From Candidatus Poribacteria bacterium (lineage in GTDB: Bacteria; Poribacteria; WGA-4E; WGA-3G), in the NCBI GenBank assembly GCA_009839745.1, contig VXPE01000041.1, forward strand, positions 27,677 to 91,676: 64,000 nt of DNA. Direction: 5' to 3'. The notes beneath the pieces are model-generated. The model ran no database searches, had not been told where the DNA came from, and saw only the letters and a list, made by a program, of their open reading frames with translations. Both the position numbers and the translations under genes were made by a program. How positions within the stretch are numbered: the stretch's first letter is position 1; every line of letters begins with the position of its first letter. Shown in pieces: positions 6,590 through 53,842 of the stretch.

Positions 6590-6964
6590 CTACCAAATTT
6601 TCACAAGAGTAGCAACGATTTGCAAAACCTGAATAACAGTTTCGTCTGGCATGTCCCCTGCGTACCGCGCGCGTCTTTCCCACCAATCAAGACTTTTGAT
6701 ATGATCTGCTTGGATGACTCCGTCAAGCTCAATAATTTGGGTGAGGTCCTTGCTACGAATTTCTACTTCTGGTGGGATCGGAACATCAAGGTCTGCACGG
6801 TAGGGCTTCCGGCTGGTCGTGATTGGACACATAATTGCCAACCACAATCTACGATTATAGATTTCTTCAGAGAGGACAAGAGCCGGACGCTCTTTTGCTT
6901 GCTCGTGTCCAACGTGGGGTTCAAAGTCAATCCACACGATATCACCGTGTCGTGGAACGTACAT
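6590..6964 (-). CDS. MazF/PemK-family toxin
   Basis: About 124 residues with the family's N-terminal signature GDIVWIDFEPHVGHEQAKERPALVLS, split here as GDIVWIDF, GHEQAKERPALV. It also has the CPITTSRKPY segment typical of the ribosome-independent mRNA interferase fold. It likely cuts single-stranded RNA and is held in check by the gene just upstream. No ATG directly follows the antitoxin. A TTG at 6979 overlaps the antitoxin stop and the ATG at 6964 is used here. GGAGG inside the antitoxin's last codons could serve either, so translation is probably coupled. Catalytic-type Arg in KERP and Thr/Ser in ITTS are present. Confidence 0.85.
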   Translation of the reverse strand: MYVPRHGDIVWIDFEPHVGHEQAKERPALVLSEEIYNRRLWLAIMCPITTSRKPYRADLDVPIPPEVEIRSKDLTQIIELDGVIQADHIKSLDWWERRARYAGDMPDETVIQVLQIVATLVKIW

Positions 6965-6972
6965 AATGGCGT

Positions 6973-7212
6973 TTACCAAACCTCCCTACCCACTAGTGGT
7001 CCGGTGTCTGTCTCTTCCGAAAGGCCAGGTTTTCGGGATTCAACTTTGGGTTCTGGGATCTTGGCTAAAAGTTCTTCTATTGTATAATTCGGACGCGGTA
7101 TAGGTCTACGCCTTTCTTTGCTACGAGGTGTTATCCCGGTCTTTTTACCGCGCAATTTGGATGCTGGAACTTTGGCAGAAAGTTTCTCTGGTGCAAGATC
7201 TGTTTTTTTCAT
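6973..7212 (-). CDS. MazE-like antitoxin lacking a clear AbrB domain
   Basis: 79 residues. The C-terminal half has the toxin-binding signature of MazE-type antitoxins: YTIEELLAKIP, then a short linker, then TDTGPLVGREVW at the very end. The N-terminal half is a Lys/Arg/Pro-rich stretch (about 40 residues) rather than the usual swapped-hairpin AbrB DNA-binding domain. How it represses its own promoter is therefore unclear. It overlaps or abuts the toxin gene, the usual antitoxin-first order. A GGGGGG purine-rich RBS lies 8 bases before the ATG. Confidence 0.75.
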   Translation of the reverse strand: MKKTDLAPEKLSAKVPASKLRGKKTGITPRSKERRRPIPRPNYTIEELLAKIPEPKVESRKPGLSEETDTGPLVGREVW

Positions 7213-9709: not shown

Positions 9710-9755
9710 AAAAGATTTCCTTTTCTGTTACGGCATAGGGAGTATGCCTACTACT

Positions 9756-10547
9756 TTAAATCCAGACAGTCGGTTCCCGGTTTTCTGCTCGGTGTTCATA
9801 GAGCAATTTGACATCGTCCGGTAACTTATCGAACGTTTCGCCCGGAATCGTGGCGGTATTCGCACCAAAGAGTTCTAAATTCAGCCACCACGGCGCGTAT
9901 CTGACGACGACTGCAGTCCGCTTCCCAGCACTCGGATTTTCTGCATTGGAATGCCAAATCCGGCTGTCCATGATGAGCACACTGCCGGCGCTGCCAACGG
10001 CTTGCATCTCCCCGTCAAGTGGATTCCGGTCACCGATGTTGTCTTCTTTGCCTCTGGGGTTCCGGAGGTCCACATGCGTTTTGGGAACAATCCAGGTCCC
10101 GCCGTTTTCCGTTGTGAACTCGGAAAGCATCCAGAGGGTAGTGATACCGATGACAGCACTCGGAAACGGTTGCGGAATGTGCCACTTCTGGTTCAGATCA
10201 TACGGAAAATCGGAGTGGTATGCACGCACCAATTCGTAATGTGGGGGACGGATCTTATACTCAGTCTGCGAAATACGCACTTGCGGTCCGAGGAGCTGTT
10301 GGATAGTGGTGAGGAGCCGTTCGTTCGCAAGGTGTGCGGCGAACTTCGGCATGAAACTGATGACATTGCGTCCCCAGACACCATGTTCTTTTCTAAATTC
10401 ATTATAGTCCGATTCAGAGGTTTCGACCTCTTCACGGACCTCACCAACCACATCGGGGGGTATAACGTTCTCTAAGACGCACCAGCCCTCTTCTCGCAGT
10501 TGTGTAACGTGGGGTTCAATTGTTGCTAATAGATTATCGGTTTCCAT
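9756..10547 (-). CDS. Phytanoyl-CoA dioxygenase (PhyH) family protein
   Basis: 263 residues, Fe(II)/2-oxoglutarate oxygenase of the PhyH family. The facial triad appears as YHSDFPYD (HxD) and the distal His in SRIWHSNAENPSAGKRTAV, whose Arg would bind 2-oxoglutarate. GTWIVPKTHVD is the usual loop before the second metal site. The substrate cannot be told, since this family is expanded in poribacteria-like genomes and mostly uncharacterised. The start METDNLL is chosen because AAAGGAGGT lies 5 bases upstream. The longer frame to 10592 has no such RBS. Confidence 0.87.
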   Translation of the reverse strand: METDNLLATIEPHVTQLREEGWCVLENVIPPDVVGEVREEVETSESDYNEFRKEHGVWGRNVISFMPKFAAHLANERLLTTIQQLLGPQVRISQTEYKIRPPHYELVRAYHSDFPYDLNQKWHIPQPFPSAVIGITTLWMLSEFTTENGGTWIVPKTHVDLRNPRGKEDNIGDRNPLDGEMQAVGSAGSVLIMDSRIWHSNAENPSAGKRTAVVVRYAPWWLNLELFGANTATIPGETFDKLPDDVKLLYEHRAENREPTVWI

Positions 10548-46150: not shown

Positions 46151-47749
46151 TTACTTAACCCTTGCACTAAATCCTGTGGCTTTCACGATGTCTGCGAGAT
46201 CGTCCGCAGTTGCAGTATTTTTTCGGACTTTAATAACGGCTTGATCGGGGAGAGTGACTTCAACGCTAATAACGCTTTGATGTTGTGTAAGTGCATCCTG
46301 CACTTTGGCGACGCAAGCCGCTCACGTCATGCCTGTCACTACCAGAGCGACATCCTGACTTCCCGCGGGTTCGATCGGGACAGACATAAAGGCATTCAGG
46401 AGTTTACCGGTAGCGGTATCAAATATCCGAATCTTTCCATCAAAGCCGCCTGTAGCGAGCTGCGTGCCATCCGGATGAAACGAGACAGCGAAAACACCAA
46501 CTGTATCGCCTTGCATGCTTGCTAAACGCGTTCCGGCTTCTGTGTTATAGACACGCGCTTCACCACCTGTACTACCAGTAGCTAACCGACTGCCATCTGC
46601 CGAAAACGCGACCCCTTCAATCGTACCTGATTGTGCTTCATACGCTTGGATGAGATTGAAATCTGTGTTACCTACATCTCTCCGTATTTCACGAAAGATT
46701 TTATAGAGTCGTGGAATCCGGTCTTCACCGCCATTTAGAACCCAATCTTCAGTCGGGTGCCGGGCAATAGTGTTGATTTCTCCGTAACCTTTGTTACTGG
46801 AGTTGATATCGTCAACGAAAGAACCTGTGTCTACCTCAACCAACTTGAGGGCGGTATCCCGCCCCGCACTCACGAAATGGGAACCATCGGTAGAGAAAAT
46901 CGTGCCGAAAACCCAGTCACTGTGGTTGTCGAACTTAATCAGTTCTTTCTCGTCTTCAACGGACAGAACGCGGACCGTCTGATCCGAACATCCGAAGGCG
47001 ACGCGACTGGCATCTGGTGAGAAGGAGAGACCGTACACGGTGTCATAGCTGGAACGTATCGCTTTGATGAGCGTATTTGTTGCGGTATCCCATAGTTGCA
47101 CTTCGCCGAATTGTGCGGGGGAGCCGCCTGCCATGCCTAAGATCTTTCCGTCTGCCGTATACGTCAGCGATTCTATACGATGCGCTTTGCCTACGAGTCT
47201 CGCTTTGAGTTCAAAGTTCGTTGTGTCATATAACAAAATTTCGCGGAACCCGGACACCGCGAGGGTGCCACCATCAGGCGAGTATGCCAGCGCGGTAACC
47301 ACGGGCGGCACTGTGTAAGTCGGATAGTTTCCCTCACCCATATCGTCGACTTCAGTGGGTGTGTCGTCCGGCGCGCCTTCAAGAATCCAGCGTCGGAATA
47401 ATTCGACCTCTTCGGTTGAGAGGGGTTCCATGTTTTGGGGCATTGCCGGTTCATCGCCGGAGATGAGTTCGATAAGGAGACTTTCATCCGGTTTTCCAGG
47501 GACAATTGCATTCCCCGCCATTCCACCCTGCTTGAGATCTGCGTAGGTTGTCACAATCAAATCGCCGTTCGGATCGCCGGGGTGATGGCATCCTTGACAA
47601 CTCCGTTTGAGAAGTGGGACAATTTGGGAATGGTAACTGATGGCTGAATCTGTCGCGTGCTGGTCTGCCGTTACATACGGGCTTAATGCTACAAAACAGA
47701 GCAGATACACCCCTAAATGAATCATAAACCTTGATCGCGATGCTTTCAT
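46151..47749 (-). CDS. Cytochrome-WD40-HMA protein with in-frame UGA at Sec position
   Basis: 532 codons counting the UGA. A signal peptide (about 1-28) is followed by the planctomycete cytochrome domain with CQGCHHPG (CxxCH heme site), then about six WD40-type repeats, and an HMA heavy-metal domain. The frame up to the TGA (46322-46324) ends in ALVVTGMT. After the TGA the same frame runs AACVAKVQDALTQHQSVISV, then EVTLPDQAVIKVRKNTATAD and DIVKATGFSARVK, a complete beta-alpha-beta-beta-alpha-beta HMA fold. The TGA thus replaces the first Cys of GMTCAAC and is probably selenocysteine at residue 476. The conventional reading would end at 46322 with a truncated HMA. The alternative is a nonsense mutation. 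Confidence 0.8.
46289..46305 (-). promoter_or_regulatory. Candidate bacterial SECIS element
   Basis: Read on the minus strand: AAGTGCA-GGA-TGCACTT, a perfect 7-bp stem with a 3-base loop whose first two bases are G. The loop starts 23 bases after the TGA. The published bacterial SECIS pattern asks for a 4-16 bp stem, a 3-14 base loop with a G among the first two, and 16-37 bases between UGA and loop. All three are met. Confidence 0.75.
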
Positions 47750-49702: not shown

Positions 49703-52700
49703 ATGAGTTTGGCACGTAATCTAACCCGTTTTGGCGTGTTGTATGCGTTAAAACTCGCTGTTAATAGTTTTGTCATGCCACTGCTGCTTGGCATCTTGTT
49801 CGTTTTTAACGGTTGTGTAAAGATGGAGGCAACCCGAAAGGCGGATTGGGAGACACACTTCACGGATCTGCACTTCGTCAATCACAAACAGGGATGGGTT
49901 GTCGGGGAAAAAGGGCTAATTATTCATACAATGGATGGCGGAAAAACGTGGAAGCAACAAGAAGTTGACACAACAGGCGTTGGATATCGCATACCCGATG
50001 CCTCCTTAGACTTCAAGGCGGTCTACTTTACGAACGCAAACAATGGTTGGGCGGTTGGCGATGAAGGGTTAGTTGCGGTAACTGACGATGGCGGTAAACA
50101 CTGGACGCTGCAACGAAGCGGCACCTCGGCGATGCTCCTTGATGTGTATTTCGCCAATTCAAAAGAGGGGTGGATCGTTGGAGAAGATTCGGATGTCCTC
50201 TATACCAAGAACGGCGGAAAAGCGTGGAAACGGTTCGAGTACGTCAGCGAATTTATGCTCAACGGGGTCTGGTTCGTTAGCGATTCCACAGGATGGGTCG
50301 TCGGCACTCACGATAGAATTCTTCATACCAAAACCGGGGGCGAATCGTGGCGAGAGCAGAGTAACCGCTTTGCAGGTGAACGCGACCGAATGATCAACGA
50401 CAATAAACAGGTCTTCTTCGTCAGCGATAACGAGGGCTGGATTGTCGGCAGTGACGGCTCTATCTTCCACACAGCGAACGCTGGGGTCAATTGGCAACGC
50501 CAAGATAGTCGGATTCCACTCATTAATGGACACGTCCGAGATACCATCAACAGTATCCATTTCACAGATGAAAATTACGGGATCGCCGTAGCAGATGTCG
50601 GCTTTATTACGCGGACCGAGGACGGTGGCGACAACTGGCAATTGATGGACAGTGGCACCGAAAACAATTTGACTGGCATCCAGTTTACGACACCTACAGA
50701 GGCATGGGCGATTGGGTGGTACGGCACTATTTTACACACGACGGATGCCGGGGCGACATGGGAGATGACCAGTGGAACGACTGCGAATGATCTACAGAAT
50801 GTCCAATTTACGAATGCAAATCGCGCCATTGCAGTCGGTAGGCGCGGGACTATGGCGATGAGCGAGGATGGCGGACAAACTTGGAACGAAATTGAAACGG
50901 ATATCTGGGACGGCATCTGGAACATTTATTTCGCAACGGACAAGCACGGCTGGGCTGTCGGTGAACGTGGACTCATCGTCCACACAAGTGATGGCGGCAC
51001 GAACTGGGAACGCCAGCGCGGGCCTTCTGCCTTTACACTCCGGTCTGTCCACTTCATTAGTCCTCAAGTCGGTTGGGCTGTCGGGGATCTCGGGAGTATC
51101 ATACACACAATTGATGGCGGCACAACGTGGCTTTCACAAACCGCCACGGGCGATTTTCTCTCCTTGATGCTAAAGGGTGTATTTTTTCTTGATGAAAAGA
51201 AAGGGTGGGCTATCGGATGGCCCGGGGTCTGCCTCACGACGGAAGATGGCGGGCTGACATGGAACCAGCAGGCGACTGGGACCTTCAATGAACTCTATGC
51301 CGTTTACTTCGCGGATGAAAACACCGGCTGGATTGTCGGACAGTTTGGCGAAATTCTACATACGACAAACGGCGGAGAGCGGTGGAACTTCCAACGCAGC
51401 GGCACGCAAGCAAACCTAAATAAACTCTATTTTGCGGGTACACAACACGGATTAATCGTGGGTGATGACGGTGTGATGCTCACCACTGTCAACGGCGGCA
51501 AAAAGTGGGAAGTGCAAGAGAGCGGCACCGATAACGACCTCTACGGACTCGCACTCTCACCCGACGGTGTCGTGGCTGTCGGTAAGGGTGGAATTGCGAT
51601 GCGTTACTCTATTGAAGAGGCGGAATTGCCAGCAAAATTGCCACCTGTCGCCGAAGAACCAGAAATTATCACGGCTGAAGAGGAAATCCCTGTTGAACCC
51701 GTTGCCTATCATTGGGACATTATTCGTCAAGCAACGTGGCGAACGAACTTTGCCGATACGTATTTTGTGGATGCACAGAACGGATGGGCAGTCGGTTCTG
51801 GGGGCGCAATCGCACATACCACAGACGGCGGCAAGACATGGCTGCCACAACACAGCGGTGTCAGTGAAAACCTACGCCAGGTCGAATTTTCTGATGAAAA
51901 ACACGGACGAATCCTTGGGACTGGTATTTTACTTCAGACCGAAAATGGGGGTGAAACGTGGCGACCGATTCTTCAGGCAACCAAGCAGAACCTACCACGC
52001 GTTAGCACAATGCATTTCCTAAATGCCAATGAAGGTTGGCTCGGAGGAACGATCGGGCAATTCGTGCATACCGCGGATGGCGGCAAAACATGGAAAATCC
52101 AGAAGACCGGAACCACACTGGCAAACATCACCGACATACACTTTATCAACAGTCAGGTAGGGTGGGCAGTCACACCGCAACGCCGAGATGGCGGGTTTAT
52201 TCTCCATACTGTTGATGGTGGCGATTATTGGAAAATTCAGGCGAAGACAAATCAAGCGGGTGTTGCTGTCCACTTTGCTGATGAAAACCGAGGGTGGGTG
52301 GTTCTCGGCAACGGCAATTCTTTGTTGACTGAGGACGGTGGTGAAACATGGAGATTGCAGACCACGACCCGAAGCACACGCGGAAACCTGCGAGGCATCA
52401 CCTTCCACTCACATACCAACGCTTGGGGACTCGGTGGTGGCGGCGTGTATATCACCGAAGACCAAGGGATCACTTGGAAACTTGTGTCTGTTGATACAGG
52501 AGATGATGCAGACGATAATATGTTCGCTATGGAAGAATCCAACGAAGAATTCAACCCGTTTTTACTCGGAGAATCCGAGCCAGAGATGGAGGAAACAGAA
52601 GAAGTGGAGGAAGAGGGAGCAGAGGGACCGACGTTACAATACGATGAAACCCCGGAGGAAATCCAAAATCGACTTCGGGCGCAGCGGCAACGCCCCGGAC

Positions 52701-53842
52701 GTTTCGCCCCTGAAGGTGAACTTCCGCCTAACGCTGAACAAGCGACGCCACCCACAGTGCAGCGGCAGCAGCAACCACCCCCACCACCGCCAGAGCCGCG
52801 AGGACGCCGCGGACGCGGTGCCCGCCGCATCGCCAGCGTATACTTCTTGGACGCAGCACACGCCTGGGCTGTCGGAAGTGGCGGCAGTATCTACCACACC
52901 GCAGACGGTGGAGATACATGGGAACGCCAACTCGGTGAACAGCAGCGCAATGACTTCCGAGAGGTCCTCTTTTACGATGACAAAAACGGTTGGATAGCCG
53001 GGGACAGCGGCGTGCTATTGGAAACCCAAGACGGTGGACAGACATGGGAGACACTCCGAAGTCGGACGCGCCAGCGCCTCATCGGTGTTCACTTTGCGAG
53101 TCTCGAACCTGAAAAATGGGGATGGGCAATGCAACGCGACGGAACCGTCCTCTATACGACAGATGGCGTGGCGTGGACGGCAGGGGATACGCCTGAGCAA
53201 CCGCCTTTCATGGAAGGCGACTCACCCGGGACGTTCTCACTGAACGATGTGGATTTCGGCAAGTTTTCTGAAGGGTGGGCTGTCGGGCGACTCGGATACA
53301 TCATCCATAACAAAGATGGTGGTCCCACGTGGACAACTCAGCGCACCACTGCAAACGACACACTCATGGATGTGGATATGAAATTCGCACCCCTGGGGTG
53401 GGCTGTCGGGAAAAGCGGGGTGACCCAACGTACCATCAACGGTGGTGAGTATTGGCGGCTGCACGAAACGAAGATTAATTACGATCTCAATGCGGTTTCA
53501 TTTGTTGCGAAGCGGACAGGCTGGGCGGCTGGTGAAGCGGGGATCGTCCTCAAGACGACGGATGGTGGTTTTAATTGGAGTCCCAAATCAACGGGTGTCA
53601 ACAAAACACTTCACGGTATCATCGCGCTCTCTGAGAAGGAGGTCTACGCGGTCGGCGAAGAAGGGATCATCATCCGTTCAACCGATGGCGGTGAAACGTG
53701 GGAGCAGGAGCACACCGATATCGACAACAACCTCTATGTCATCACCCGTTCCAAAGATGGTAAATCGTTATGGGTTGTTGGGCAGTGGGGCGTTGTCCTC
53801 CGTCGCAAATTAGAGACCCCCGTGCGGATGTCAATGCGATAA
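49703..53842 (+). CDS. Giant YCF48-like (BNR/Asp-box) propeller lipoprotein
   Basis: 1379 residues. The lipobox-like FVFNGC near residue 37 suggests a lipoprotein. The rest is about 25 YCF48-type beta-propeller blades, each with a W-A-V-G turn and an Asp box such as HTMDGGKTW, TDDGGKHWTL and HTTDAGATWEM. They form two or three propellers. Between the second and last propeller lies an acidic and proline-rich linker (about residues 935-1035, with EETEEVEEEG and QQQPPPPPPEPRGRR). YCF48 is a photosystem II assembly factor in plants, but this fold is general and here is probably an envelope scaffold. GGAGGG lies 4 bases before ATG 49703. Confidence 0.85.
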   Translation: MSLARNLTRFGVLYALKLAVNSFVMPLLLGILFVFNGCVKMEATRKADWETHFTDLHFVNHKQGWVVGEKGLIIHTMDGGKTWKQQEVDTTGVGYRIPDASLDFKAVYFTNANNGWAVGDEGLVAVTDDGGKHWTLQRSGTSAMLLDVYFANSKEGWIVGEDSDVLYTKNGGKAWKRFEYVSEFMLNGVWFVSDSTGWVVGTHDRILHTKTGGESWREQSNRFAGERDRMINDNKQVFFVSDNEGWIVGSDGSIFHTANAGVNWQRQDSRIPLINGHVRDTINSIHFTDENYGIAVADVGFITRTEDGGDNWQLMDSGTENNLTGIQFTTPTEAWAIGWYGTILHTTDAGATWEMTSGTTANDLQNVQFTNANRAIAVGRRGTMAMSEDGGQTWNEIETDIWDGIWNIYFATDKHGWAVGERGLIVHTSDGGTNWERQRGPSAFTLRSVHFISPQVGWAVGDLGSIIHTIDGGTTWLSQTATGDFLSLMLKGVFFLDEKKGWAIGWPGVCLTTEDGGLTWNQQATGTFNELYAVYFADENTGWIVGQFGEILHTTNGGERWNFQRSGTQANLNKLYFAGTQHGLIVGDDGVMLTTVNGGKKWEVQESGTDNDLYGLALSPDGVVAVGKGGIAMRYSIEEAELPAKLPPVAEEPEIITAEEEIPVEPVAYHWDIIRQATWRTNFADTYFVDAQNGWAVGSGGAIAHTTDGGKTWLPQHSGVSENLRQVEFSDEKHGRILGTGILLQTENGGETWRPILQATKQNLPRVSTMHFLNANEGWLGGTIGQFVHTADGGKTWKIQKTGTTLANITDIHFINSQVGWAVTPQRRDGGFILHTVDGGDYWKIQAKTNQAGVAVHFADENRGWVVLGNGNSLLTEDGGETWRLQTTTRSTRGNLRGITFHSHTNAWGLGGGGVYITEDQGITWKLVSVDTGDDADDNMFAMEESNEEFNPFLLGESEPEMEETEEVEEEGAEGPTLQYDETPEEIQNRLRAQRQRPGRFAPEGELPPNAEQATPPTVQRQQQPPPPPPEPRGRRGRGARRIASVYFLDAAHAWAVGSGGSIYHTADGGDTWERQLGEQQRNDFREVLFYDDKNGWIAGDSGVLLETQDGGQTWETLRSRTRQRLIGVHFASLEPEKWGWAMQRDGTVLYTTDGVAWTAGDTPEQPPFMEGDSPGTFSLNDVDFGKFSEGWAVGRLGYIIHNKDGGPTWTTQRTTANDTLMDVDMKFAPLGWAVGKSGVTQRTINGGEYWRLHETKINYDLNAVSFVAKRTGWAAGEAGIVLKTTDGGFNWSPKSTGVNKTLHGIIALSEKEVYAVGEEGIIIRSTDGGETWEQEHTDIDNNLYVITRSKDGKSLWVVGQWGVVLRRKLETPVRMSMR

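Follow-up and report, generated by a model that had tools for sequence, protein, structure and literature searches.

The window (the whole 64,000-nucleotide stretch of DNA analysed) includes on its minus strand a cytochrome-WD40 open reading frame, whose first stop codon is TGA (46324-46322), with TAA (46153-46151) the next stop in frame (Table 1). Around the first of these, the minus strand reads GGC ATG ACG TGA GCG GCT TGC GTC GCC AAA GTG CAG GAT GCA CTT ACA. Readthrough would give a product of 532 aa with residue 476 coded by TGA, within GMT-U-AAC. A sequence-only reading of this DNA had proposed that the frame stays open beyond the TGA and completes an HMA domain, with TGA in place of the first Cys of GMTCxxC, and this is borne out by the sequence. 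Its extension of the protein by 57 codons holds if the TGA is counted but not for the residues past Sec, which number 56 (20 + 36); the '37 more' residues that it assigned to the C-terminal end are one too many. The gene is flanked by a sulfatase gene downstream and a YceI gene upstream, and these neighbours at the locus give no pointer to a metal operon or to function. Elsewhere in the window, a plus-strand ORF of 1379 aa (49703-53842) consists of repeated 'GWAVG..G.I.HT.DGG..W' units, which are YCF48/BNR-like by eye.

Table 1. Features of the predicted selenoprotein gene, in window positions.
Feature	Position	Strand	Details
Full gene of the predicted selenoprotein	46151..47749	minus	ATG 47749 to TAA 46153-46151; 532 aa, Sec476
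N-terminal hydrophobic signal-peptide-like segment, residues 1-30	47660..47749	minus	MKASRSRFMIHLGVYLLCFVALSPYVTADQ, by inspection
PSCyt1 cytochrome c domain, residues 51-104, heme motif CQGCH 51-55	47438..47599	minus	PF07635 E 3.3e-10
WD40 beta-propeller, ~residues 154-455	46385..47290	minus	PF00400 E 4.4e-31
HMA domain, residues 464-532	46154..46360	minus	PF00403 34.8 bits vs gathering cut-off 24.8
In-frame TGA as putative Sec476, GMT[U]xxC	46322..46324	minus	62 TGA vs 3 TGT/TGC in 65 homologues
Candidate bSECIS hairpin AAGTGCA-GGA-TGCACTT, 7 bp	46289..46305	minus	loop begins 23 nt past UGA

The domain make-up is supported by profile matches and by a predicted structure. The N-terminal segment forms a helix (residues 2-21) in the model, and the PSCyt1 match (40.9 bits vs a cut-off of 22) includes a CxxCH heme motif, of which C51, C54 and H55 are invariant in 25 homologues. 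The model's best PDB matches include seven-bladed propellers (7bie_A, TMt 0.92); the propeller dominates the matches in a fold search of the whole model, from which nothing was gained on the HMA domain. In the AlphaFold2 model, where Sec476 is represented by Cys and the cytochrome part and linkers are of lower certainty, the C-terminal domain has the order beta-alpha-beta-beta-alpha-beta (E464-472, H477-488, E493-499, E503-509, H515-524, E528-530; block pLDDT 84-93), and residue 476 sits directly ahead of helix 1. The position immediately before helix 1 is the usual place of a metal ligand in HMA domains. The GMxCxxC ligand pair corresponds to U476 and C479, the first position being that of Sec. 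The nearest solved HMA relatives by sequence are Cu-ATPase HMA domains, with copper chaperones (CopZ-type) and MerP lower on the list; a profile search detected no ATPase domain in this protein.

Candidatus Poribacteria is a mostly sponge-associated phylum. Full-length homologues were found in most of the 85 Poribacteria genomes searched; the nearest relative is 98% identical in this protein, and the closest named relatives are all Candidatus Poribacteria. In an alignment of 65 homologues that include HMA, taken from fetched loci, codon 476 is TGA in 62 and a Cys codon in three (two TGT, one TGC), and each of the 62 TGA-bearing homologous frames has a single TGA, at this same codon. The comparison at GMT[C/U] that had been suggested for this site thus gives Cys in 3/65. 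A sequencing or assembly error that turned TGC or TGT into TGA is hardly conceivable and was rejected, since this codon is TGA in 62 distinct homologous genes, nearly all from different MAGs, with four same-genus genomes being single-contig assemblies, and no points in favour of such an error were found; the misreading that the sequence-only reading had named as a danger is ruled out on the same grounds. One genome (G027) contains a second, partial TGA-bearing WD40-HMA end about 1 kb past the full gene (G027:C53:6470-7518, in L066), which is either a duplication or an assembly artefact.

The 56 codons after the TGA have a mean dN/dS of 0.155 in the 62 genes (0.129 without the stem codons), and the cytochrome-WD40 part upstream of the TGA has a dN/dS of 0.070. 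Synonymous divergence outside the stem is high (dS about 1.5-1.7), indicating that these genes are no near-copies. These values bear on the explanation that translation simply ends at the TGA and that the HMA sequence 3' of it is a decaying pseudogene remnant. Default bacterial gene calling would indeed stop at the TGA, and homologues of other phyla likewise finish near this point, but a dN/dS of 0.13-0.16 over 56 codons in 62 genes, with the frame open in all of them, is purifying selection of a kind that a stop followed by junk does not explain, and three homologues have Cys at exactly the TGA codon. The pseudogene explanation was therefore rejected as extremely improbable.

The hairpin downstream of the TGA has the geometry that had been claimed for it, starting 16 bases past the TGA with its loop at 23. 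The bacterial SECIS rule specifies a loop of 3-9 nt, an upper stem of 4-16 bp, a distance of 16-37 nt from the UGA, a G among the first two loop positions and an MFE <= -7.5 kcal/mol (PMC13188914). With its 3-nt GGA loop, 7 bp and spacing of 23 nt, the element lies within the published spacing, loop and stem ranges; its MFE varies with the stretch folded, from -6.4 kcal/mol for the 17-nt stem alone to -14.2 for a 36-nt element. Counting both strands, the window has 2,234 TGAs, of which 12 (0.5%) precede a comparable perfect hairpin of at least 7 bp; the GGN-triloop form of it follows this TGA only. Such a GGN-triloop stem arises in 0.16% of synonymous recodings of the stretch, and no other TGA in the window combines at least 80 open codons before it, at least 35 after it and such a hairpin of at least 6 bp. 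The fold energy of the region is unremarkable relative to shuffled sequences (z = -1.4; 16/200 shuffles fold equally well) and is therefore not used as evidence, the case resting on conservation.

Codons without synonymous variation are rare in the gene (9/518 scorable codons in 62 genes), and five of the nine are the consecutive stem-loop codons 482-486 (hypergeometric P 2.5e-9, a value that treats codons as independent), so that synonymous constraint is stronger at the hairpin than anywhere else in the gene. The stem codons GTG, CAG and GCA are each present in 62/62 genes, and the final loop base varies (GAT, GGT or GCT, for Asp, Gly or Ala). In the three Cys homologues the same stretch reads GTGCAAACTGCGCT, GTGCAGAGCGCGCT or GTGCAGAGTGCGAT, and the paired stem with a GGN loop is gone: in L086 a 6-bp stem persists with the loop AAC, which has no G in its first two positions, and in L087 the stem is of a different shape. 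The conservation check proposed for the stem thus finds it kept across relatives and altered or broken where Cys is encoded. At the outermost stem pair, two compensatory AGA/CTC cases, five G-U wobbles and six mismatches were seen; covariation is weak because the inner stem scarcely varies, and the argument is therefore placed on synonymous constraint.

The genes for selenocysteine synthesis and insertion, for which a search had been advised, are all present: profile searches of the window's genome detected selA (600 bits), selB (346 bits, above cut-off) and selD (360 bits); the selD gene itself contains one in-frame TGA. A tRNA-Sec (anticodon TCA) lies ~110 bases downstream of selB, on the contig that carries both. 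Because the full gene set is present, the organism very probably makes selenocysteine. The in-frame TGA of selD (L011:about 1501-2424) lies within CAGUASK, suggesting that SelD itself is probably a selenoprotein. No match to selA was obtained in seven genomes with the TGA form (G061, G060, G077, G049, G027, G030 and G033); most of these are incomplete MAGs, G061 being rated 96% complete, and the missing selA probably reflects assembly gaps. Co-occurrence of SelA and SelB has been noted in sponge-symbiont bins (PMC5649159).

Five HMA matches are found in the window's genome, three of which contain TGA. Two of the three are small genes that lie side by side on contig C6 (L095:6105-6503 and 6610-6999), with signal- or lipoprotein-like N-termini and GMTUGAC motifs, and they share with the window gene the hairpin AARGTGCAGGATGCACT; unlike the window fusion, these stand-alone genes encode HMA only (129-132 aa). 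The Sec-HMA hairpin pattern occurs in 66/85 Poribacteria genomes, and a reversed control pattern in 0/85. Adjoining the contig C6 pair is a peroxiredoxin/TlpA-like gene (L095:about 9740-10366) with an in-frame TGA (TGTUGDC) and a 7-bp stem with a GGU loop, unrelated in sequence but of the same architecture, which is a probable further selenoprotein.

Reassignment of UGA to Trp, or leaky suppression, would yield the identical frame, as any readthrough does. Against this, the alternative residue at the site in homologues is Cys and never Trp, and both the hairpin and the full Sec machinery are present. In addition, the gene of family f4 has its internal TGA with the hairpin and ends with a second TGA, beyond which the sequence is non-homologous, so that UGA would mean both Sec and stop within one gene; a hairpin-directed mechanism allows such a dual meaning. 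Decoding as Trp was rejected, and this class of explanation as a whole is very doubtful. Sec insertion at residue 476 of this PSCyt1-WD40-HMA fusion is, on the combined evidence of sequence, very likely: at that level readthrough, the exchange of Sec with Cys, constraint on the stem, domain make-up and the presence of the machinery are all evident, and the protein family appears to be a genuine new selenoprotein family.

The origin of the fusion can be approached from its relatives. PSCyt1-WD40 proteins of Verrucomicrobia and Acidobacteria are 43-49% identical to the window protein over ~residues 32-460 but differ from it in having neither HMA nor Sec; they stop short of the HMA domain, as do some Poribacteria proteins of family f7. 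Given these relatives without HMA, the PSCyt1-WD40-HMA fusion looks confined to Poribacteria. In a tree of the cytochrome-WD40 part, f4 (Sec) is the first Poribacteria branch and f1 (Sec, including the window protein) forms a separate clade with good support; f3 (Cys) and f7 (no HMA) fall between these two, so that Sec lineages flank Cys lineages; some of the deeper forks are modestly supported (88/77, 94/89). A simple reading would be a single gain of Sec-HMA, followed by a change to Cys in f3 and a loss in f7. Independent gain of Sec on more than one occasion is possible.

Sec in HMA-type domains is already known from several systems, and MerP-like and UxxC ATPase selenoproteins are listed in surveys (PMC2398784, PMC13188914). 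NF041115 (UxxU_metal_bind, the 'putative mercuric reductase' UxxU of surveys) likewise has Sec in the metal-ligand motif of an HMA-type domain, but it is a small protein (a 74-position model) with two Sec, whereas the window protein has UxxC fused to PSCyt1-WD40 and scores 30.6 bits against this model, below the cut-off of 95. NF045683 (MerT/CopZ fusion-like heavy metal transport selenoprotein) shares Sec and a CopZ-like domain within a fusion, but the fusion is to MerT, and the window protein scores 15.2 bits vs a cut-off of 375. The cation-transporting ATPase E1-E2 selenoprotein shares UxxC in a metal-transport protein (PMC13188914, PMC2398784) but is a P-type ATPase. The proposal of a novel cytochrome-WD40-HMA fusion with Sec is thus correct as to the PSCyt1-WD40 fusion, which is new, but not as to Sec in HMA-type proteins.

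A text search of PMC13188914 and PMC12013277 gave no WD40 or Poribacteria entry, and the PSCyt1-WD40-HMA(Sec) architecture is absent from the reviews searched. The literature searched, with subscription papers and public MAG annotation outside its scope, contains no report of a Poribacteria selenoproteome, only incidental mentions of Poribacteria together with selenocysteine, and no report of this protein. As far as can be told, the family is new, and so is the architecture in which this known kind of Sec site occurs.

The product would be an exported 532-residue protein with a signal peptide, a monoheme PSCyt1 domain, a WD40 propeller and a C-terminal Sec-HMA domain, in which the first metal-ligand Cys of HMA is replaced by selenocysteine (GMT-U-xx-C). 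SelB and tRNA-Sec would decode the UGA under the direction of the GGN-loop hairpin that closely follows it. In Poribacteria the Sec-HMA module, whose coding sequence includes the hairpin, would have been fused to a cytochrome-WD40 protein that elsewhere has no HMA, and Sec and Cys forms would have been swapped between lineages. A metal-binding role of Sec-HMA is probable; in its likely form, the Sec-Cys pair would capture a soft metal ion (Cu(I), Hg(II) or similar) in the periplasm or hand one over there. It is also conceivable, though rather unlikely, that Sec-HMA serves the heme domain in redox chemistry (as a selenenylsulfide) instead of binding metal, a role compatible with the selenoprotein reading: UxxC is a redox motif as well and a CxxCH heme site is present in the same protein, but the domain is of the HMA family and not of the thioredoxin fold, and the Cys that Sec replaces is a metal ligand. 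Any cooperation of Sec-HMA with heme is possible but unsupported.

A further role, improbable on present evidence, is that the UGA acts as a selenium-dependent domain switch, with one gene giving two functional products according to selenium status. With selenium or the SelB complex in short supply, translation would stop at residue 475 and release a near-complete cytochrome-WD40 protein, which would resemble the homologues that naturally lack HMA; with enough selenium, the protein would gain its Sec-HMA metal-binding domain. Sec sits just where an otherwise complete protein would end, which makes this a testable case of selenium-dependent domain addition.

For annotation, a standard gene caller would cut this family off at residue 475. 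With Sec insertion at 476 as the preferred reading, a selenoprotein family would be added in a phylum for which no selenoproteome report was found, and the family would be a case in which a Sec codon and a SECIS hairpin within the coding sequence have travelled with a domain onto an unrelated cytochrome-WD40 protein, and in which Sec has been exchanged with Cys between sister lineages.
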